64,000 nucleotides of DNA from Ottowia thiooxydans DSM 14619 (GTDB lineage: Bacteria; Pseudomonadota; Gammaproteobacteria; Burkholderiales; Burkholderiaceae_C), in assembly GCF_000422885.1 (NCBI RefSeq), contig NZ_KE383942.1:189353-253352 (forward strand), in the 5' to 3' direction. Made by a program: the position numbers and the translations under genes. The notes beneath the pieces were generated by a model, which searched no databases, was not told the origin of the DNA, and worked only from the letters and a program-made list of their open reading frames with translations. This document shows positions 10,303-54,059 of this stretch, piece after piece (the stretch's first letter is position 1; the number at the start of each line of letters is the position of its first letter).

Positions 10303-12732
10303 ATGGAAAGCGCCGCCGTCCTATCTTCCCCACGAGACGAGCCAGTGCGAATTGAGTTGCAACCACGCGCTGCCCAGCGCTGGGAGTTGCTTGACGAGCC
10401 CGACGAGTGGATGGAATTCAGCCGCCGCGTGCAAACGCAGGGCGAGGATACGAGCGTCTGCTGGGAGTCTACGGTCGTTTTTGAGGGCATGCATTGCGCA
10501 GCCTGCGCGGTCACCATTGAAGACGCGCTGCGTAAAACACCTGGTGTGCGTTCGGTCGAGGTTGGTGCGGCGAGCCATCGCGGCAGGGTGGTGTGGGAGG
10601 AGGGCGCCACGCTTCCTTCCACCTGGATGCAGGCTGCTCTGAGGGTCGGTTATCCGCCATTACCGGCGCACGATGCCTTTGCCGCCGAGCGTCGTCTTGC
10701 AGAAACCCGCACGATGATGTGGCGTCTGGGGGTGGCCTGCCTTTGCATGATGCAAGTCATGATGTATGCCACACCAACATACTTCACTGCGCCAGGCGAG
10801 ATCGAGCCAGATATCGTGCACCTGCTTCGGTGGGCAGCGTGGGTGCTGTCGATCCCCGTGATGCTTTTTTGCTGCCAGCCTTTTTTCCGCAATGCGCTGC
10901 TTGATCTCAAGCTGCGTCGCGTCAGCATGGATCTGCCGGTCTCCATAGGCATGCTGATCACCTTCGTCGTCAGCACCCTGGGCACGTTTGAGCCTGCCGG
11001 CGTGTTCGGCGGCGAGGTGTACTTTGATTCGCTGACCATGTTCGTGTTCTTCCTGCTCACGGGCCGCTGGTTGGAGTTGCGGCTGCGTGATCGCACCGCT
11101 GGCGCCCTGGAAAAGCTGATGCACCGCTTGCCAGAGAGCGTGGAGCGGCAACGCGCAGATGGCGCTTGGGAGCGTGTAGCGGCGCGCCGGATTCGCGTGG
11201 GCGATGTGCTGAGAGTGCTTCCGGGCGAGGTTTTCCCCGCGGATGGCATCGTGCTGCGCGGCGAAACCACGGCTGACGAAGCCTTGTTGACCGGCGAGTC
11301 AACGCCATTGGCACGGGGCCAGGGCTCCCAGGTGATCGCCGGCAGCCACAACCTTACGGCGGTAGTGGAGGTTCGGGTGCAACACGTGGGGCGTGAGACA
11401 CGCTACGCACAGATTGTGGCGTTGATGGAATCGGCCTCTACCAGCAAGCCCCGCATTGCCCAATTGGCTGACCGCCTCGCCAAGCCTTTCCTGATATTCG
11501 TGCTGTTGGCGGCAGGACTGGCTTGTGCCTGGTGGTGGCCCACAGATCCGGGGCATGCGCTCATGATTGCCGTGGCTATTCTGGTGGTCACCTGCCCTTG
11601 TGCGCTCTCATTGGCTACTCCTGCTGCCATGTTGGCCAGTGCAGGAAGTTTGGCGAAGCGGGGCGTATTGGTGCGCCGCTTGCAGGCGCTCGAAGTCTTG
11701 GCTGCCGTGGACACGGTGGTGTTTGACAAGACGGGCACGCTGACCCGTGATGCGTTCGTGCTGGAGCGTATTCAGTTACGCCCGGGGGTAACAAGCGAGG
11801 AGGCGCTGTCAATCGGTGCCGCGCTGGCTCAGAAAAGCCTGCATCCGGTGTCCCGCGCCTTGGTGTCCGAAGCCGCACGGGCGGGCCTCACGCCCGATGC
11901 CTGGCATGTCCGTGAATCGCAGGAGATCTCCGGCCAGGGGGTGATGGCTGAGTTGGCTGATCAGGGGATGGCTTGGCGACGAGTGCGCCTGGGCTCTGAA
12001 GCTTTTTGCCTGCCGCGTGCGGTAGCGGCCCAGGGCAAGGGATTCGAGGGTAGCACCCACGGGGCGACGGCGGGAGACGGCCTCACCTCTCACCTGAGTG
12101 ATGAGCAAGGGTGGCTGGCAAGCTTCGAATGGCGTGAGGATTTGCGCGACGATGCCGTGCAAGCGGTAGCTGCCTTGCAGGCACAGGGTATCCGGGTGCA
12201 TTTGTTTTCCGGCGACCGGCCTGGAGCGGCGGCACGCGTGGGGCAATTGGCTGGAATCAGTGATGCGCGTGGCGGCTACTCTCCCGCAGACAAACTTAGT
12301 GCTATGCAGCAGGCTCAACGAGCCGGCGCCACGGTTGCCATGGTGGGTGATGGCTTGAACGATGGTCCCGTGCTTGCCGGCGCCGACGTCTCGTTCGCAT
12401 TTGGGCGCTCAGTGCCCTTGGCGCAAGCGCAGTCTGATTTCGTGGTTCTTGGCGAGCGGCTGCTTTCCATCCCGGCTGCAGTGCTGCGGGCACGCCGCAC
12501 CATGCGCATCGTGAAGCAAAACCTGGGGTGGGCAGCTGTGTACAACGCTGTAGGTATTCCGCTCGCAGTGATCGGTTGGATGCCGGCTTGGCTGGCTGGG
12601 CTGGGTATGGCTGCCAGCTCGCTTTTGGTGGTGCTCAACGCCTTGCGCTTGTCTGGGGCAGCGCCACTGGAGCTAGGCCTTGAAATGCCGCTCGAACAAG
12701 GGCAAGCTTTAGGAGCGCTGAATGGTCATTGA
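10303..12732 (+). CDS. ccoI: CcoI, copper-transporting P-type ATPase for cbb3 oxidase assembly
   Basis: About 809 residues. An N-terminal heavy-metal domain carries GMHCAACAV. Membrane helices then lead to the P1B signature TCPCALSLATPAAM, the TGES actuator loop (LLTGEST), the phosphorylation motif DKTGTLT and the hinge GDGLNDGPVL. This set defines a Cu(I)-exporting ATPase. Its place directly before ccoS and ccoNOQP identifies it as CcoI/FixI, which supplies copper for the CuB centre of CcoN. The ATG at 10303 is preferred because the box at 10255-10268 occupies the region upstream, but no clear ribosome-binding site is visible and the transcript leader may be very short. Confidence 0.93.
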   Translation: MESAAVLSSPRDEPVRIELQPRAAQRWELLDEPDEWMEFSRRVQTQGEDTSVCWESTVVFEGMHCAACAVTIEDALRKTPGVRSVEVGAASHRGRVVWEEGATLPSTWMQAALRVGYPPLPAHDAFAAERRLAETRTMMWRLGVACLCMMQVMMYATPTYFTAPGEIEPDIVHLLRWAAWVLSIPVMLFCCQPFFRNALLDLKLRRVSMDLPVSIGMLITFVVSTLGTFEPAGVFGGEVYFDSLTMFVFFLLTGRWLELRLRDRTAGALEKLMHRLPESVERQRADGAWERVAARRIRVGDVLRVLPGEVFPADGIVLRGETTADEALLTGESTPLARGQGSQVIAGSHNLTAVVEVRVQHVGRETRYAQIVALMESASTSKPRIAQLADRLAKPFLIFVLLAAGLACAWWWPTDPGHALMIAVAILVVTCPCALSLATPAAMLASAGSLAKRGVLVRRLQALEVLAAVDTVVFDKTGTLTRDAFVLERIQLRPGVTSEEALSIGAALAQKSLHPVSRALVSEAARAGLTPDAWHVRESQEISGQGVMAELADQGMAWRRVRLGSEAFCLPRAVAAQGKGFEGSTHGATAGDGLTSHLSDEQGWLASFEWREDLRDDAVQAVAALQAQGIRVHLFSGDRPGAAARVGQLAGISDARGGYSPADKLSAMQQAQRAGATVAMVGDGLNDGPVLAGADVSFAFGRSVPLAQAQSDFVVLGERLLSIPAAVLRARRTMRIVKQNLGWAAVYNAVGIPLAVIGWMPAWLAGLGMAASSLLVVLNALRLSGAAPLELGLEMPLEQGQALGALNGH

Positions 12733-12791: not shown

Positions 12792-12929
12792 ATGGACATT
12801 CTGTATTTACTGATCCCGCTCTCCGTGGTGCTGATTTTTTTCATCCTCGGCGCCCTGTGGTGGGCTATCTACCGCGGGCAATTCGATGAAATCGACCGCG
12901 AAGGGGAGCGCATTTTTGAGCATGATTGA
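12792..12929 (+). CDS. ccoS: CcoS, cbb3 oxidase maturation protein
   Basis: 45 residues, MDILYLLIPLSVVLIFFILG then ALWWAIYRGQFDEIDREG. A single membrane helix is followed by the conserved FDEIDREGERIF-like tail of CcoS. CcoS is needed for insertion of heme and copper into the oxidase. The longer frame from GTG 12729 would add 21 unrelated residues and is not supported. Its stop codon lies inside the ANR/FNR box of ccoN. Confidence 0.92.
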   Translation: MDILYLLIPLSVVLIFFILGALWWAIYRGQFDEIDREGERIFEHD

Positions 12930-12939
12930 TTCATATCAA
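12926..12939. promoter_or_regulatory. Perfect FNR/ANR box upstream of ccoN
   Basis: TTGATTCATATCAA fits TTGAT-N4-ATCAA exactly. It overlaps the ccoS stop and has its centre about 64 bases before the ccoN ATG. A -41.5 class II position would put transcription start near 12974. It indicates low-oxygen induction of the structural oxidase genes separately from ccoIS. Confidence 0.88.
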
Positions 12940-12995
12940 GGGAAACCATGCTGGGTTCGAGGACACTATTCAAGGTTCATTAGGAAGGGGTGGAA

Positions 12996-14432
12996 ATGAC
13001 GTTCGCCAATATGCGAGCCACTGTCTACAACGACAAGGTGGTTAGGCAATTTGCCATCATGACGGTGGTCTGGGGTGTGGTCGGGATGCTTGTGGGGGTG
13101 ATCATCGCCGCCCAGCTGACCTGGCCAGAGTTAAATCTGGGCATTTCATGGCTCAGCTACGGCCGATTGCGGCCGCTTCACACCAATGCGGTGATCTTCG
13201 CCTTCGGTGGTTGTGGTCTCATGGCTACGTCCTACTATGTGGTGCAGCGAACCTGTCAGGTGCGACTGTTTTCGGACAAGCTTGCTGCCTTCACGTTCTG
13301 GGGCTGGCAGTTGGTCATCGTGGCTGCTGCGGTCAGCCTGCCGCTGGGCTACACCAGCGGCAAGGAATATGCCGAACTCGAATGGCCCATCGACATCCTG
13401 ATCACCCTCGTGTGGGTGGCCTATGCGGTGGTCTTCTTCGGCACCGTGGGTACCCGTAAGGTCAAGCATATCTACGTGGCCAACTGGTTCTATGGCGGTT
13501 TCATACTGGCCGTAGCGCTCTTGCATTTGGTCAATAGCGCGGCGCTTCCCGTGGGTGCCATGAAGTCCTATTCCGCCTATGCCGGGGTGCAAGATGCCAT
13601 GGTGCAGTGGTGGTACGGGCATAACGCCGTGGGCTTTTTCCTCACGGCAGGCTTCCTGGGCATGATGTATTACTTCATTCCCAAGCAGGCTGGCCGTCCG
13701 GTGTATAGCTACCGGCTCTCCATCGTGCACTTCTGGGCGCTGATCTTCACTTACATGTGGGCTGGCCCACATCACCTTCACTACACCGCTCTCCCTGATT
13801 GGGCGCAAAGCGTAGGCATGGTGTTCTCCCTGATCCTTCTGGCGCCAAGCTGGGGCGGCATGATCAACGGTGTCATGACGCTCTCCGGTGCCTGGCACAA
13901 GCTGCGTGATGATCCCATCTTGCGATTCCTGATCGTGGCGCTGTCGTTCTACGGCATGTCCACCTTCGAGGGTCCGATGATGTCGATCAAAACCGTCAAC
14001 GCCCTCAGCCACTACACCGACTGGACGGTGGGCCATGTGCACTCCGGCGCGCTTGGATGGGTGGGCCTGATCACCATGGGCTCCATGTACTACATGATCC
14101 CGCGCCTGTTTGGCCGTACTCAGATGTACAGCACCAAAGCCATCGAGGCACACTTCTGGATCGCCACCATCGGCATCGTGGTCTATATCGCCGCGATGTG
14201 GATTGCAGGCGTGATGCAGGGCCTGATGTGGCGCGCTGTCAATCCGGATGGCACGCTCACCTACACCTTCGTCGAATCCGTAAAGGCTACCTTCCCCTTC
14301 TACGTGTTGCGTCTGCTTGGTGGAGTGCTTTATCTCGGCGGCATGTTCATCATGTTGTGGAACACAGTGAAGACGGCAACAGCCGGCCGCGCGGTTCCTG
14401 TGCAGATTCCTGCCGCAGTTGCACACGCCTGA
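12996..14432 (+). CDS. ccoN: CcoN, cbb3-type cytochrome c oxidase subunit I
   Basis: 478 residues, about 12 membrane helices. Heme and copper ligand segments are visible: [41 protein letters not shown] and [13 protein letters not shown]. This is the catalytic subunit that reduces oxygen at the heme b3-CuB site. The ATG at 12996 follows AGGAAGGGG; the GTG at 12990 overlaps that site and is less likely. ccoO follows after a 19-base gap. Confidence 0.97.
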
Positions 14433-14451: not shown

Positions 14452-15069
14452 ATGGCTCAAGAAAAAATCACCGGCCACGCCAAGATCGAGACCAACAACT
14501 TTCTGATGATTGTGTTGATCTTGCTCGTGGTCTCCATCGGTGGCCTGGTCGAAATCGTTCCACTGTTTTTCCAAAAATCCACTACCCAACCGATAGAGGG
14601 CCTGAAGCCCTATACCTCGCTGCAAGTGGTGGGGCGCGATATCTATGTGCGTGAGGGCTGCTACAACTGCCACTCGCAGATGATCCGGCCCTTCCGCGCT
14701 GAGGCGCTGCGTTACGGTCCTTACTCGGTTGCAGGCGAGTTCGTTTATGACCGTCCCCACCAATGGGGCAGCAAACGCACGGGTCCTGATTTGGCGCGAG
14801 TAGGCGGCCGCTACAGCGACGACTGGCACCGTGTGCATTTGATCAACCCTCGTGACGTGGTGCCGGAGTCGAACATGCCGGCTTACCCATGGCTCGAAAA
14901 GACCCCAGCCGACGCCAAGTCCATCCAGACCCACATGAAGGGACTGCGTACCTTGGGCGCGCCATATACAGACGAAGAAATCGCTAAAGCACCAGAAGAC
15001 TTGAAGGGCAAGACCGAGCTTGATGCAGTGATCTCTTACCTGCAAGTTCTCGGCATTCATCGCAAATAA
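14452..15069 (+). CDS. ccoO: CcoO, membrane-bound monoheme cytochrome c subunit
   Basis: 205 residues from an ATG preceded by AGGAG. One N-terminal helix ([20 protein letters not shown]) anchors a periplasmic domain with one heme c site, [12 protein letters not shown], and a probable Met ligand in [10 protein letters not shown]. It passes electrons from CcoP to CcoN. Confidence 0.97.
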
Positions 15070-15089: not shown

Positions 15090-15227
15090 ATGGACATCAA
15101 TAGCTTGCGCAGCATCGTCACCGTCACGGCACTGGTTGTCTTTCTCGGCATCGTGTTCTGGGCGTGGTCGAACAAAAACAAGGCGCGCTTCGACGAGGCG
15201 GCGAACCTGCCTTTCGAGCAGGATTGA
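15090..15227 (+). CDS. ccoQ: CcoQ, small cbb3 oxidase subunit
   Basis: 45 residues beginning MDINSLRSIVTVTALVVFLG, with one membrane helix and a charged tail (NKNKARFDEAANLPFEQD). AGGAGG stands before the ATG. Length, position between ccoO and ccoP and the DEAANLPF tail fit CcoQ/FixQ, which stabilises the complex. Confidence 0.92.
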   Translation: MDINSLRSIVTVTALVVFLGIVFWAWSNKNKARFDEAANLPFEQD

Positions 15228-15260: not shown

Positions 15261-16553
15261 ATGAGTGACTTTACAAGCAACTTTTGGTCGATCTTCATTT
15301 CGGTGATCACCATCGGGGGGATCCTGGCATGCTTGGCGCTGCTGTGGATCAGTGGCAAGACCAAGGCCATGACTCTCAGCGACAATACCACCGGGCACGT
15401 TTGGGATGGGGATTTGCGGGAAATGAACAACCCCCTGCCGCGCTGGTGGGTGGGCCTGTTCATCATCACCGTGGTGTTCGCATTCGCGTATCTGTATCTC
15501 TACCCAGGGCTTGGTACCTATGAAGGCTCGCTCAAGTGGTCGCAAACCGGCCAGTTCGATCGCGAGGTGTCCCGGGGCAACGAGCAGGCCGCGCCTATTT
15601 ACGCCGCTTTCGCGGGAATGAGCACGGAGCAGTTGGCCAAGGATGCCAAGGCCATGGCCATTGGTGACCGCCTGTTCATGAACAACTGCGCGCAATGCCA
15701 TGGCTCCGACGCTCGCGGCGGCAAGGGATTCCCGAACCTGGCCGATGGCGATTGGATGTGGGGTGGCTCGCCCGACAAAATTCATGAAACCATCGCCAAC
15801 GGCCGAACAGGGGTGATGCCACCCATAGCCGCTGCAGTCGGTACGCCCGAAGATGTGCGCAATGTCGCACACTACGTGCTCAGCCTTTCAGGCTCACCCA
15901 ATGACTCCGTACGCTCGAATCTGGGCAAGCCGAAGTTTGCGGTCTGCGCAGCCTGTCACGGTGCTGATGGCAAGGGCAATCAGGCCCTGGGCGCACCTAA
16001 CCTGACCGACAACATCTGGGTTGACGGTGCTGGTGTCGAATCGCATATCGTCAACATGATCACCAACGGCAAGACCAATGTCATGCCCGCCTGGTCGAGC
16101 AAATTCACGCCAGAGCAGATGAATGTGTTGACAGCCTATGTATGGGGCCTTGGCGGGGGCGTGCCGGGTGTGCAGCCTGCGGCAGCGGTTGCCACTCCTG
16201 CAACTCCTGCAGCGTCTCCTGCGGCTGATGCGGCATCAGTGGCGGTCGAAAATGGCGTGGTCAAGTTCTTCTTTTCCACGGGCAAAGCTGAATTGGCTGC
16301 CGGTTCAGATAAGGCTCTCGCCGATGTCGTGGCCGGAGTACAGGCTGGCAAAAAGGTGGTGATCAGCGGATACGTTGACACCACTGGCAATGCGGCTCAG
16401 AACGAGGAACTGGCCAAGCAGCGCGCATTTGCGGTTCGTGACCAGCTCAAGACTTTGGGCGTTGCCGAGGATAAGATAGAGTTCAAAAAGCCCGAGAACA
16501 TTGAAGCCGGTGCCGGTAAAGAGGCGCGCCGCGTGGAAGTGGCTTTGGGTTAG
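15261..16553 (+). CDS. ccoP: CcoP diheme subunit with C-terminal OmpA-like domain
   Basis: 430 residues, well over the usual 290-320 for CcoP. The N-terminal part is normal: two helices (residues about 9-31 and 60-83), heme sites CAQCH (about 143) and CAACH (about 229), and Met ligands in MPPIAA and MPAWSSK. After an Ala/Pro linker (about 300-322) comes a domain of about 105 residues with OmpA features: VKFFFSTGKAEL, ISGYVDTTGNAAQNEELAKQ, RAFAVRDQL and a terminal ARRVEVALG. The Asp and Arg that bind diaminopimelate in OmpA domains appear to be kept (VDTTG and QRAFAV). Because the CcoP C-terminus is periplasmic, the extra domain could attach the oxidase to peptidoglycan; this is inference. Confidence 0.94.
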   Translation: MSDFTSNFWSIFISVITIGGILACLALLWISGKTKAMTLSDNTTGHVWDGDLREMNNPLPRWWVGLFIITVVFAFAYLYLYPGLGTYEGSLKWSQTGQFDREVSRGNEQAAPIYAAFAGMSTEQLAKDAKAMAIGDRLFMNNCAQCHGSDARGGKGFPNLADGDWMWGGSPDKIHETIANGRTGVMPPIAAAVGTPEDVRNVAHYVLSLSGSPNDSVRSNLGKPKFAVCAACHGADGKGNQALGAPNLTDNIWVDGAGVESHIVNMITNGKTNVMPAWSSKFTPEQMNVLTAYVWGLGGGVPGVQPAAAVATPATPAASPAADAASVAVENGVVKFFFSTGKAELAAGSDKALADVVAGVQAGKKVVISGYVDTTGNAAQNEELAKQRAFAVRDQLKTLGVAEDKIEFKKPENIEAGAGKEARRVEVALG

Positions 16554-16702: not shown

Positions 16703-18145
16703 TTGAGTACAAAATCCCACTCTGAAAAAACCACCGCTGCGGCGGTGGCAGCTGGTGCTGTGCCCGCTGATGAAGTCATGGTGTCGCTCTACCAGGCGCA
16801 AAAGAAGATCTACCCGCGCAGCGTCACTGGCCTGTTCTCCAAGTGGCGCTGGTTCTTCGTTTACGCCACGCAGATTTTTTTCTATGGCCTGCCCTGGCTG
16901 CAATGGGGTGAGAGGCAGGCTGTCCTGTTCGATCTGGACACGCGGCGTTTCTACATTTTCGGGTTGGTGCTGTATCCGCAGGATGTCATCTACCTCTCGG
17001 GCCTCCTCATCATCTCGGCCATGCTGTTGTTTCTGTTCACCGCAGTTGCGGGGCGGCAATGGTGTGGCTATGCCTGCCCGCAGACGGTGTACACCGAAAT
17101 TTATCTGTGGATTGAAAAGAAGATCGAAGGTGACCGTTCCGCCCGCATGCGGCTGGACGCAGCGCCTATGTCTGCGGCCAAGTTTACGCGCAAGGCGCTT
17201 AAACAGCTTGCCTGGATAGCGGTAGGCTTATGGACAGGCTTCACCTTTGTCGGCTATTTCACGCCCATACAGGAACTGGCGCTTCACTTCTTCCAATGGA
17301 CCTTGGGACCATGGGAGCTTTTCTGGATTTTCTTCTACGGCTTTGCCACCTACGGTAATGCCGGCTACATGCGCGAGCAGGTTTGCAAGTACATGTGCCC
17401 CTATGCGCGCTTTCAGAGCGCCATGTTTGACAAGGACACACTGGTCGTCACTTACGACGCGGCTCGTGGTGAGCCTCGCGGCGCGCGTTCGCGCAAGACG
17501 GATCACCGTGCCGCCGGTCTGGGCGATTGTGTGGATTGCACCCTGTGCGTTCAAGTCTGTCCAACGGGCATCGACATTCGCGAGGGTCTGCAATACGAGT
17601 GCATCAGCTGTGCTGCCTGCATCGACGTGTGCAATAGCGTCATGGATAAGGTCGGCTACCCACGAGGGCTGATTCGCTATTCCACGGAGAACGCGCTCGA
17701 AAAAGGTTGGAGCGGCTCGCAGATCCTGCGCCACGTGCTGCGCCCACGCGTATTGATTTATAGCGGCATCCTGGCGGTACTGACCATTGCGCTATTCGGC
17801 AGCCTTTTCCTGCGGACACCGTTCAAGGTCGATATCGTGCGTGACCGTGCTACGTTGGCACGGATCGTTGATGGCAACAAGATCGAGAACGTCTACCGCG
17901 TGCAGATCATGAATGCCACCGAGAAACCACAGACTTACGATATCTCGGTTTCTGGCCTGCAAGGGCTGAAATTGGTGACGGATGCTCGCGTCACGGTAGA
18001 TGCTGCTGAAGGCCTCTGGGTGCCAGTCAGGCTGCAGCTACCTTACGACGGAGCGAAACCTGGCTCTCATGAGATCCACATCGATGTGAAATCAGAGCAG
18101 GCAGGTCAGGTGAACGAGAAATCCGTTTTCATAGTACCCAGGTAA
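16703..18145 (+). CDS. ccoG: CcoG/FixG, membrane ferredoxin-like copper reductase
   Basis: 480 residues beginning at a TTG (16703); the next in-frame ATG (16778) would cut into the conserved N-terminus. Several membrane helices surround GRQWCGYACPQTVYTEIY. Two 4Fe-4S clusters are bound by CVDCTLCVQVCP and CISCAACIDVCN. The C-terminus is an Ig-like FixG domain. CcoG is reported to reduce Cu(II) to Cu(I) for oxidase assembly. It is the first gene after ccoP with a 149-base gap that shows no promoter I trust. Confidence 0.94.
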   Translation: MSTKSHSEKTTAAAVAAGAVPADEVMVSLYQAQKKIYPRSVTGLFSKWRWFFVYATQIFFYGLPWLQWGERQAVLFDLDTRRFYIFGLVLYPQDVIYLSGLLIISAMLLFLFTAVAGRQWCGYACPQTVYTEIYLWIEKKIEGDRSARMRLDAAPMSAAKFTRKALKQLAWIAVGLWTGFTFVGYFTPIQELALHFFQWTLGPWELFWIFFYGFATYGNAGYMREQVCKYMCPYARFQSAMFDKDTLVVTYDAARGEPRGARSRKTDHRAAGLGDCVDCTLCVQVCPTGIDIREGLQYECISCAACIDVCNSVMDKVGYPRGLIRYSTENALEKGWSGSQILRHVLRPRVLIYSGILAVLTIALFGSLFLRTPFKVDIVRDRATLARIVDGNKIENVYRVQIMNATEKPQTYDISVSGLQGLKLVTDARVTVDAAEGLWVPVRLQLPYDGAKPGSHEIHIDVKSEQAGQVNEKSVFIVPR

Positions 18146-20647: not shown

Positions 20648-20810
20648 GCCTGTGAAACAAATTTAACGACTTTTCACCAATATCAAGTATTGGAGCGATC
20701 GCCGAATGGGAACTACGAATGTTTCTATTGCGCTGCAGCATAGCGCGATTCGCCTTGAGTGGGCGAGATCGTTGCCTGAATACATCAGTTTTAGAGTGCG
20801 TTTACAGTTT

Positions 20811-21004
20811 TTTCATCGTCGGGCCGTCCCAAGATGAAAAAACCCCCTTGGGGGCAGCGACTTCGCGTAGCGGGGGAGCGTGGGGGCAAACTTTCATCGT
20901 CGGGCCGTCCCAAGATGAAAAAGCCCCCTCGGGGGCCCGCGATTTCGCGCAGCGGGGGAGCTTGTGCAAAGTGCCTTCGCAAGGTCGCCCCAAGATGACA
21001 AAGG
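20811..21004. repeat. Two-and-a-part copies of a hairpin-forming intergenic repeat
   Basis: Copy 1 (20811-20880) and copy 2 (20892-20961) share TTTCATCGTCGGGCCGTCCC, AAGATGAAAA, a CCCCCTyGGGGGC hairpin, TTCGCGyAGC and GGGGGAGC, with about 90 percent identity by eye. A partial third copy (GGTCGCCCCAAGATGACAAA) lies at 20983-21002. TTTCATC and GATGAAA pair, so each copy can fold as two hairpins. A related unit occurs at 33695-33734. Confidence 0.85.
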
Positions 21005-52533: not shown

Positions 52534-52547
52534 TTGATGCACATCAA
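52534..52547. promoter_or_regulatory. Perfect FNR/ANR box before the adenylate-forming enzyme gene
   Basis: TTGATGCACATCAA fits TTGAT-N4-ATCAA exactly. Its centre is 76 bases before the ATG at 52617; activation from -41.5 would start transcription near 52582. AAGATAG at about 52569 is a possible -10 region. Confidence 0.85.
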
Positions 52548-52616: not shown

Positions 52617-54059
52617 ATGCACTATCACCGCGCCGTTGGGCAAGCCTTTTCAAAGCCTGTTTTTGATCCGCTGCGTCTGCAAGCCGCTACGCTTGATGTG
52701 ATCGCTGGCGGCCACGCGTCTGCCTCCGTGCTGGCGGGGCTTCAGCAGCAACGACTTTCCCGATTGATCGAGGTGGCCCACGCTGGCTCTGCTTTGTACA
52801 GGGAGCGGCTGGGCAAAAATCAGATTCGGCAGAGCGACTGGCTGAAGCTGCCACCCGTGACGCGCGATGAGTTGATGGGGCGTTTTTCTGAGTGGGTGAC
52901 TGATCCCGAGCTCGATCTCCAGGCGCTGCGGGCCTTCACCGCTGATCCCGAGCGCATGGGCGAGCCTTGGCTGGGTAAGTACATGGTATGGGAAAGCTCC
53001 GGCACCAGTGGCAAGCCGGGTATCTTTGTGCAAGACGCACAGGCACTGGCCGTTTATGACGCGCTGGAGGCGGTGCGCCATAAGCCGCCAGGGCGTAAGG
53101 CCAGTATGTTCGGTGCGTTCTCTCCACTGGATATGTTCGGGCTGGGAGATCGCTATGCCATGGTGACCGCTACTGGCGGGCATTTCGCCAGCATATGCTG
53201 CCTTGATCGCCTGCGCAAAATCAACCCGTGGCTTGAAGCCAAGTCCCGGGGCTTTAGCATTCAGCAGCCGACTGATGCGCTGGTTCAGCAGTTGAATGAC
53301 TATGCCCCCATGGTATTGGCGACTTACCCAAGTGCCGCTGCCATGCTGGCTGAAGAGGCCGAGCAGGGGAGGCTGCGCATTCGGCCCACCAGCATCATGA
53401 CGGGCGGAGAAATGCTGAGCGCCGCTACCCGCGCTCGCATTTCCAGCGCTTTCGGGGCGCCGGTGCGCAACAGCTATGGAGCATCAGAGTTCCTGCCCAT
53501 CGCTTGGGAATGTGCGCACGGGCATTTGCACGTGAATGAGGACTGGCTGCTTTTGGAGCCGGTCGATGAACAGTTCCGCCCCACGCCACCTGGGGAGTTC
53601 TCGCATACCGTGCTGCTTACCAATTTGGCGAATCATGTGCAGCCGCTCATCCGCTATAACCTTGGCGATCAGATCAGCATGCACAGAGGGCGGTGCACCT
53701 GCGGCTCATCGCTGCCGGTGATCCAGGTACAGGGCCGGGGCGACGATACCTTCCGAGTGCCGGGGCTCCGGCGCGGCCAGATGGTCAGTCTGTTGCCACT
53801 GGCTTTGTGCACGGTGTTGGAGGAGGAGTGCCGGGTCTTTGACTTCCAGCTGGAGCAGCGGGAGCCTAGCACCTTGGTGGTGCGTCTGCCTTTGCAAGGC
53901 CCGGAAGCGGCGGCGGCAATCGAGCGTTGCCGCATTGCCCTGGAGGCGTTTGCATTGGCGCAAGGAGCAAAGCCTATCCGCGTGATTGGGGAGCCAGGCT
54001 GTGAAGTGCCCCGCGGGCGAAGTGGAAAGGCTTGCAGGGTAGCGCTGAAGACGCCCTAG
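52617..54059 (+). CDS. Adenylate-forming enzyme, phenylacetate-CoA ligase / F390-synthetase-like
   Basis: 480 residues. The AMP-binding loop is MVWESSGTSGKPGIFVQ; other family marks are VLATYPSAAAMLAEEAEQG, IMTGGEMLSAATR, NSYGASEFLPIAWEC and LIRYNLGDQISM, with a Cys pair in GRCTCGSSLPVIQVQGRGDD. It probably activates an acid with ATP; the acid is unknown. An exact FNR/ANR box upstream suggests induction at low oxygen. The stop codon TAG is the fifth to third base pair set of a MITE end (element C), so the last residue or two may have been replaced by the insertion. Confidence 0.88.
   Translation: MHYHRAVGQAFSKPVFDPLRLQAATLDVIAGGHASASVLAGLQQQRLSRLIEVAHAGSALYRERLGKNQIRQSDWLKLPPVTRDELMGRFSEWVTDPELDLQALRAFTADPERMGEPWLGKYMVWESSGTSGKPGIFVQDAQALAVYDALEAVRHKPPGRKASMFGAFSPLDMFGLGDRYAMVTATGGHFASICCLDRLRKINPWLEAKSRGFSIQQPTDALVQQLNDYAPMVLATYPSAAAMLAEEAEQGRLRIRPTSIMTGGEMLSAATRARISSAFGAPVRNSYGASEFLPIAWECAHGHLHVNEDWLLLEPVDEQFRPTPPGEFSHTVLLTNLANHVQPLIRYNLGDQISMHRGRCTCGSSLPVIQVQGRGDDTFRVPGLRRGQMVSLLPLALCTVLEEECRVFDFQLEQREPSTLVVRLPLQGPEAAAAIERCRIALEAFALAQGAKPIRVIGEPGCEVPRGRSGKACRVALKTP

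Follow-up and report, generated by a model that had tools for sequence, protein, structure and literature searches.

The window, by which we mean the whole stretch of 64,000 nucleotides analysed here, encodes a CcoP subunit of a cbb3 oxidase, a respiratory enzyme for low-oxygen conditions. This CcoP is a diheme protein of the normal kind to whose periplasmic C-terminus an OmpA/Pal-type module has been transplanted. From sequence comparison and structure prediction we think it rather likely that this module anchors the oxidase to the cell wall, which would place the CcoP fusion among the inner-membrane complexes with an OmpA-type wall anchor.

The CcoP-OmpA fusion and its locus

The fusion gene (15261..16553, on the forward strand like all parts of the locus and protein given below) starts with ATG and encodes 430 amino acids with no internal stops. 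The CcoP equivalog profile TIGR00782 matched residues 42-300 with 269.1 bits (required >179.95 bits), the FixP_N domain (PF14715, 82.3 bits) covered residues 41-87 (15381..15521), and Pfam Cytochrome_CBB3 also matched. Two CXXCH haem motifs were read from the sequence, CAQCH at residues 143-147 (15687..15701) and CAACH at residues 229-233 (15945..15959). An Ala/Pro-rich linker (residues 298-326, 16152..16238) leads into the OmpA-like module (residues 327-430, 16239..16550; Pfam core 337-408), for which PF00691 gave 45.5 bits with the whole protein (E 1e-11) and 49.2 bits with the isolated 104 residues, against a gathering cut-off of 27.2. The sequence-only reading of this DNA had proposed a CcoP that continues through an Ala/Pro linker into a periplasmic OmpA-like domain, and this order is borne out by the TIGR00782 match, the significant PF00691 match and the open 430-residue frame. 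Its periplasmic placement of the domain also holds with the CcoP topology that we assume, the module end being presumably on the periplasmic side.

The fusion gene is part of a ccoNO(Q)P-G locus. It is preceded by ccoN (subunit I, 12990..14432; TIGR00780, 795.6 bits), ccoO (subunit II, 14452..15069, from the first ATG of an ORF listed from 14419; TIGR00781, 304.7 bits), in which the OmpA module is absent, and a small ORF of 45 aa (15090..15227) that is ccoQ-like by position and sequence and found no match in an NCBIfam search. It is followed by ccoG, encoding an oxidase accessory protein (16703..18145; TIGR02745, 517.6 bits). A heavy-metal P-type ATPase gene (10327..12732; TIGR01525, 509.5 bits) adjoins the cluster and, judged by position only, probably encodes CcoI. 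Upstream of ccoN we observed a perfect FNR-type palindrome, TTGATTCATATCAA (12926..12939).

Fold, contact residues and selection

AlphaFold gave the isolated module an OmpA-type fold (pLDDT 80.7, pTM 0.73), in line with the domain assignment of the sequence-only reading. The module is predicted to fold like Pal and OmpA: the best PDB match of the model was Pal (4g4w; Foldseek E 1.2e-7, TM 0.77/0.74), followed by TolB/Pal, TagL and, lower, an OmpA structure that contains a peptidoglycan pentapeptide (3td5, TMq 0.77), and the top 50 PDB rows were OmpA-like chains with TMq of 0.62-0.80. The full-length model (pLDDT 71.9, pTM 0.42) contained predicted N-terminal helices and a module folded from residue 326, with pLDDT <50 at linker residues 302-321. 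The linker also had the lowest mean pairwise identity (61%) of the three protein parts compared.

In TagL, the residues Asp486, Asn494, Leu497 and Arg501 are the diaminopimelate (DAP) contacts (PMC8253398). The positions aligned with them in the fusion protein are Asp373 (16377..16379), Asn381 (16401..16403), Leu384 (16410..16412) and Arg388 (16422..16424), the first and last of which are the Asp (VDTTG) and Arg (QRAFAV) that had been picked out as apparent peptidoglycan contacts. Across 159 modules the aspartate was present in 154 and the arginine in all 159, a conservation that is partly circular because every module used to build the search profile had both residues; the asparagine was found in 97.5% (about 155) and the leucine in 90.6% (about 144). 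Wall binding by TagL requires five residues, Asn494, Leu497, Ser498, Arg501 and Ala502 (PMC8253398), four of which are kept here, with Ala385 in the place of Ser498. The authors of that study consider Ser498 not to be a DAP contact in TagL (PMC8253398).

The canonical GxGE..P stretch of the beta3-alpha3 region is shortened in the module. The Pfam match ended at profile position 76-77 of 98, a shorter stretch was also seen there in the PDB alignments, and the earlier observation that the GxGE loop is replaced therefore stands. This short stretch is a subfamily trait and no bar to membership of the Pfam family; the beta3-alpha3 loop may modulate binding (PMC8253398). Among the fused CcoPs of the window's genus, purifying selection on the module resembled that on the haem domains, with median omega values of 0.201 (module) and 0.192 (haem domains) over the 80 usable pairs of 136.

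Related modules on other proteins

Treating the fusion as a matter of CcoP, as the sequence-only reading did, proved too narrow, as related modules were observed on CcoO, CoxB, HppA, AmtB, PufC and a membrane-anchored cytochrome c. A CcoP-only oddity was rejected once a search of the window's own genome located related modules on HppA and AmtB. In that genome the module profile matched five places at E 1e-12, the CcoP included: HppA carries a C-terminal module 55% identical to the window's, AmtB an N-terminal one behind a signal-peptide-like stretch (46%), a YidB-type protein with a hydrophobic helix a third (40%), and a stand-alone protein of 177 aa with one hydrophobic helix a fourth (58%). 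The CoxB of the same genome was searched and the module was absent from it.

In the family, order and class surveys the best 5-15 candidates were scored per genome, so that all module counts from them are lower bounds. The module was found in at least 164 of 349 genomes and at least 78 of 141 genera of the family (E 1e-24), and in at least 43 of 349 genomes and at least 24 of 148 genera of the order. Wide spread in the class was rejected: at E 1e-20 at least four of the 321 sampled genomes matched, of which three belong to the window's family. The only class-survey match outside the family, in a genome outside the order (G981), was a one-helix protein with four internal repeats that ends in the same module family.

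The order survey listed 58 loci outside the window's own genome, 34 of them on energy-conversion or ion-transport proteins: HppA (17, in 9 families), CoxB (10, in 4 families), CcoP (3), PufC (2), Amt (1) and a cytochrome that we take to be c5-like (1), for which no NCBIfam match was found. The remaining 24 listed loci comprised 16 stand-alone proteins, a label that denotes no match to any of 11 reference partner proteins, as well as 4 BON and 4 DUF937-type proteins. Host identity was confirmed by profiles for a single representative of each of four classes, with PF00691 above its cut-off in every case: CcoO (L121; TIGR00781, 296.8 bits), CoxB (L141; TIGR02866, 186.8 bits), CcoP of the family f45 (L217; TIGR00782, 385.5 bits) and PufC (L228; NF040706, 466.9 bits). 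The HppA and AmtB fusions of the window's own genome were likewise confirmed by profiles. The fusions of CcoO, which like CcoP is a c-type subunit of cbb3, have a C-terminal module and came from four genomes of one genus (g26) of the window's family (L119-L122; L121 has 363 aa), and in each of these four loci the CcoP was plain (301-315 aa).

Several individual architectures were also observed. The photosynthetic reaction-centre cytochrome PufC carries a C-terminal module at two loci (L227, L228), and in one membrane-anchored protein (L198) the module is flanked on both sides by a cytochrome c domain. AmtB with an N-terminal module behind a signal-peptide-like sequence was seen at six loci (L004, L146, L155-L157, L221). 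Two YidB-type proteins (L153, L154) bear two tandem modules, and in L153 a weak third match starts at the contig end.

The module occupies the C-terminus of CcoP, CcoO, CoxB, PufC and HppA and the N-terminus of AmtB, whose C-terminus is cytoplasmic. With the topologies that we assume, the fused end is presumably the periplasmic end in all six. A rule by which linker length would follow how far the partner's end rises above the membrane was considered and set aside, as the medians (Amt 22.5, CcoP 27, HppA 36.5, stand-alone 43, CcoO 52, CoxB 57; over the rows in which a regular expression located a landmark) gave no convincing rule.

These hosts bear on a first alternative to wall anchoring, in which the module would bind a periplasmic or outer-membrane protein, or dimerise, for example in assembling respiratory supercomplexes, and would not bind peptidoglycan. 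OmpA-fold domains also bind proteins, complexes of TolB/Pal and YfiB/YfiR were among the fold matches, the crevice loop region is shortened, the serine that TagL needs for wall binding is an alanine, and several hosts are redox proteins (cbb3, CoxB, the c5-like cytochrome). Set against this, the four DAP contacts are kept in widely differing hosts, among them HppA and AmtB, which have no redox partner in common with the oxidases, and we regard a protein partner as unlikely.

Distribution of the fused CcoP

A scan of public contigs yielded 369 relatives, of which the best 80 were kept. Nine of these 80 loci (L009-L016, L018) encode a fused CcoP of 418-454 aa, and the other 71 a plain CcoP of 300-319 aa; the nearest relative by sequence among the 80 (L017, 91%) is plain. 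No stop codon or frameshift of the kind that would have refuted the sequence-only reading separates linker and domain in the window, and the fusion was repeated uninterrupted in the nine public loci. In the window's genus we searched 29 genomes and found CcoP in 24, with the module on CcoP in 15 of the 24 and on none in the other 9; the 9 of 80 and the 15 of 24 are not to be summed because the organism sets overlap. The genus CcoPs without the module include one (G010) of 94% identity. The absence of the module in close relatives, G010 included, means that it is not essential and argues against a strict need for anchoring.

Within the family sample CcoP was found in 292 of 349 genomes, and the higher-scoring matches listed included five full fusions, all in the window's genus. 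On these listed matches we rejected the fusion as a general trait of the family's CcoPs. The plain CcoPs of G010 and L017 end in an Ala/Pro-rich tail that resembles the start of the linker. No module remnants were found in the loci of four plain CcoPs (L017, L160, L165, L168). Plasmid-borne spread was rejected, as the module alone had no match at 1e-10 among 72,556 plasmid records.

History of the module and the CcoP terminus

A module tree was built from 159 modules over 106 alignment columns as a quick tree with SH-aLRT support only. It leaves out identical modules, modules that scored <60 bits or had <90 residues, the G001 HppA module and the f45 CcoP modules found later. One branch (99 SH-aLRT) united CcoP modules of the genus (16) with HppA (14) and CcoO (4) modules of the family, and the HppA module of the window's own genome fell within it; 18 of the 32 HppA modules were placed outside, in a tree that has only 106 columns for its 159 rows. 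Two f45 CcoP modules grouped with three modules of f45 DUF937 proteins (100 SH-aLRT), and the third f45 CcoP module in the tree (L213) stood apart from these two with weak support. The starred branches forced at least three changes of the CcoP label. As CcoP modules lie on separate supported branches, we read at least two recruitments by CcoP, which thus probably acquired the module at least twice; gene conversion after a single acquisition could mimic such independent recruitment. In a tree of CcoP itself (about 300 residues, module excluded; likewise a quick tree with SH-aLRT as its only support), the plain CcoPs L017, G005 and G014 were nested among fused ones, and we read them as local losses.

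A different pattern was observed in f45 (CcoP rows L273-L337 and L213), which we infer to be Neisseriaceae from its tri-haem CcoP. Of its 83 genomes, 66 had CcoP. The C-terminus of this protein bore the module in 37 genomes and a third CXXCH haem domain in 18; the other 11 had neither, and some of them may be truncated or frameshifted (G735, G712, G764). The larger third-haem clade was nested within the module-bearing CcoPs, and a second clade of three rows branched elsewhere. The third-haem form of f45 resembles the published CcoP of Neisseria, so that the end of CcoP looks like a domain-exchange slot: the OmpA module and the third haem appear to share one slot behind an Ala/Ser/Pro linker and to replace each other there. 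In the 2010 description of the tri-haem CcoP of Neisseria, the extra C-terminal domain was attributed to recombination with cytochrome c5 (PMC2924362). A domain was there added at the same C-terminus behind an Ala/Ser/Pro-rich linker, as in our fusion, but the added domain binds haem and is connected with nitrite reduction, and the main text of that paper has no occurrence of "OmpA" (PMC2924362). The f45 pattern would recast this known tri-haem CcoP as one of two occupants, third haem and OmpA module, of a single slot.

Such exchange bears on a second alternative, in which the module would be nearly neutral, a passenger that recombination between Ala/Pro-rich linkers has spread. Its presence is patchy and rare among the family's CcoPs, the CcoPs of L017 and G010 stop right after the linker-like tail, and in f45 a third haem domain takes its place at the same linker. 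A passenger would agree poorly with a module omega close to that of the haem domains, with the retained DAP-contact residues and with a fused end that is presumably the periplasmic end in each named class of energy protein, and we consider it quite unlikely.

Proposed wall anchoring of the oxidase

In the wall-anchoring account, the module would reach out from CcoP on its flexible linker and bind the DAP stem peptide non-covalently, and the oxidase would thereby be fastened to the wall and perhaps also spaced along it, comparably to the anchoring of motors and secretion systems by MotB or TagL. The sequence-only reading had suggested that the fusion could tie the high-affinity oxidase to the cell wall, and we still consider this tie the most plausible account of the module. 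The predicted layout of the fusion protein is MotB/TagL-like, with a membrane anchor followed by a flexible linker and, presumably on the periplasmic side, an OmpA-type domain. A single module might suffice for a cbb3 complex, because CcoP is plain where CcoO carries the module, and the stand-alone protein with its one helix would act simply as a staple from inner membrane to wall. The shortened beta3-alpha3 stretch, the exchange of Ser498 for Ala385 and the lack of the module in close relatives and in the genome's own CoxB count against anchoring. In E. coli, removal of the peptidoglycan-binding domain did not increase the mobility of OmpA (PMC3637615), and binding therefore need not mean immobilisation.

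A third alternative keeps the wall but changes the purpose, the module sensing the wall or envelope tension and altering oxidase activity or assembly through the linker, as in a stator. MotB and MotY profiles and chains were among the weak sequence matches, and many hosts are ion-moving machines. A linker that is predicted to be disordered and is poorly conserved would, however, make a poor lever, and AmtB, PufC and cytochrome c have no obvious need of gating; we judge this sensing role very improbable. An annotation or assembly artefact was rejected as having a negligible chance, with the uninterrupted fusion present in several independent assemblies, including that of the isolate Ottowia sp. 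GY511.

Among known systems, MotB-type stators are ion-moving inner-membrane complexes with a periplasmic OmpA-type anchor on a linker. The fusion protein shares this arrangement, and weak MotB and MotY matches were obtained with the fusion protein or module, but the stator's anchor is needed for mechanical work and an oxidase has no such need. TagL of type VI secretion is similarly an inner-membrane protein with an OmpA-type wall-binding domain and the four DAP contacts; it differs in its canonical loop length, in Ser498 and in serving a trans-envelope machine rather than an electron-transfer complex (PMC8253398). In Dickeya, the inner-membrane protein OutB is attached to peptidoglycan by L,D-transpeptidases, a precedent for tethering inner membrane to wall, yet a covalent one (PMC12274547).

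An OmpA-like C-terminal domain on membrane pyrophosphatases of Burkholderiales was described in 2024 with its role to be elucidated (PMC11210485). Here too HppA carries an OmpA-like module; oxidases, AmtB, PufC and a shared module are not treated in the passages concerned (PMC11210485). A 2009 table lists ORF13 of B. pseudomallei as a "putative cytochrome c oxidase" with an OmpA match; in the section concerned it is set aside without analysis and the subunit is not named (PMC2716516). By analogy with the fusions above, ORF13 may perhaps be CoxB. A search of the open-access literature, mostly at title and abstract level, found no report of CcoP, CcoO, AmtB or PufC fusions or of the shared module, and "OmpA" and "pufC" do not occur in PMC2654016.

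As far as is known, non-covalent anchors from inner membrane to wall belong mainly to envelope-spanning or mechanical machines (compare PMC12274547). A wall anchor on electron-transfer complexes, apparently recruited repeatedly onto different subunits, would make the spatial fixation of respiratory complexes testable by removal of one domain. The usual picture of such complexes is one of diffusion in the inner membrane; the hosts observed here hint that in these bacteria energy machinery may be pinned to the wall. More tentatively, and with considerable doubt, we suggest that in Burkholderiales a single short-loop module, which also occurs alone with one helix, might have been copied onto energy complexes, which would then hold the membrane to the wall and would themselves be fixed in static respiratory zones. 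If so, the hosts of such a staple system would be cbb3- and aa3-type oxidases, the photosynthetic reaction-centre cytochrome, the membrane-anchored cytochrome c, the H+-pyrophosphatase and the ammonium channel.

Other features of the window and genome

With the FNR consensus that we assume for the palindrome search, the window contained 7 FNR-type sites with at most one mismatch against 1.4 expected, 2 of them perfect. The second perfect palindrome (52534-52547) lies upstream of a 480-aa ORF (52617-54059). Three copies of a direct repeat of about 38 nt occur at 20805-21003 with a spacing of 80-81 nt. The assembly of the window's genome measures 7.05 Mb, and those of the 28 other genus genomes searched range from 1.3 to 4.5 Mb.
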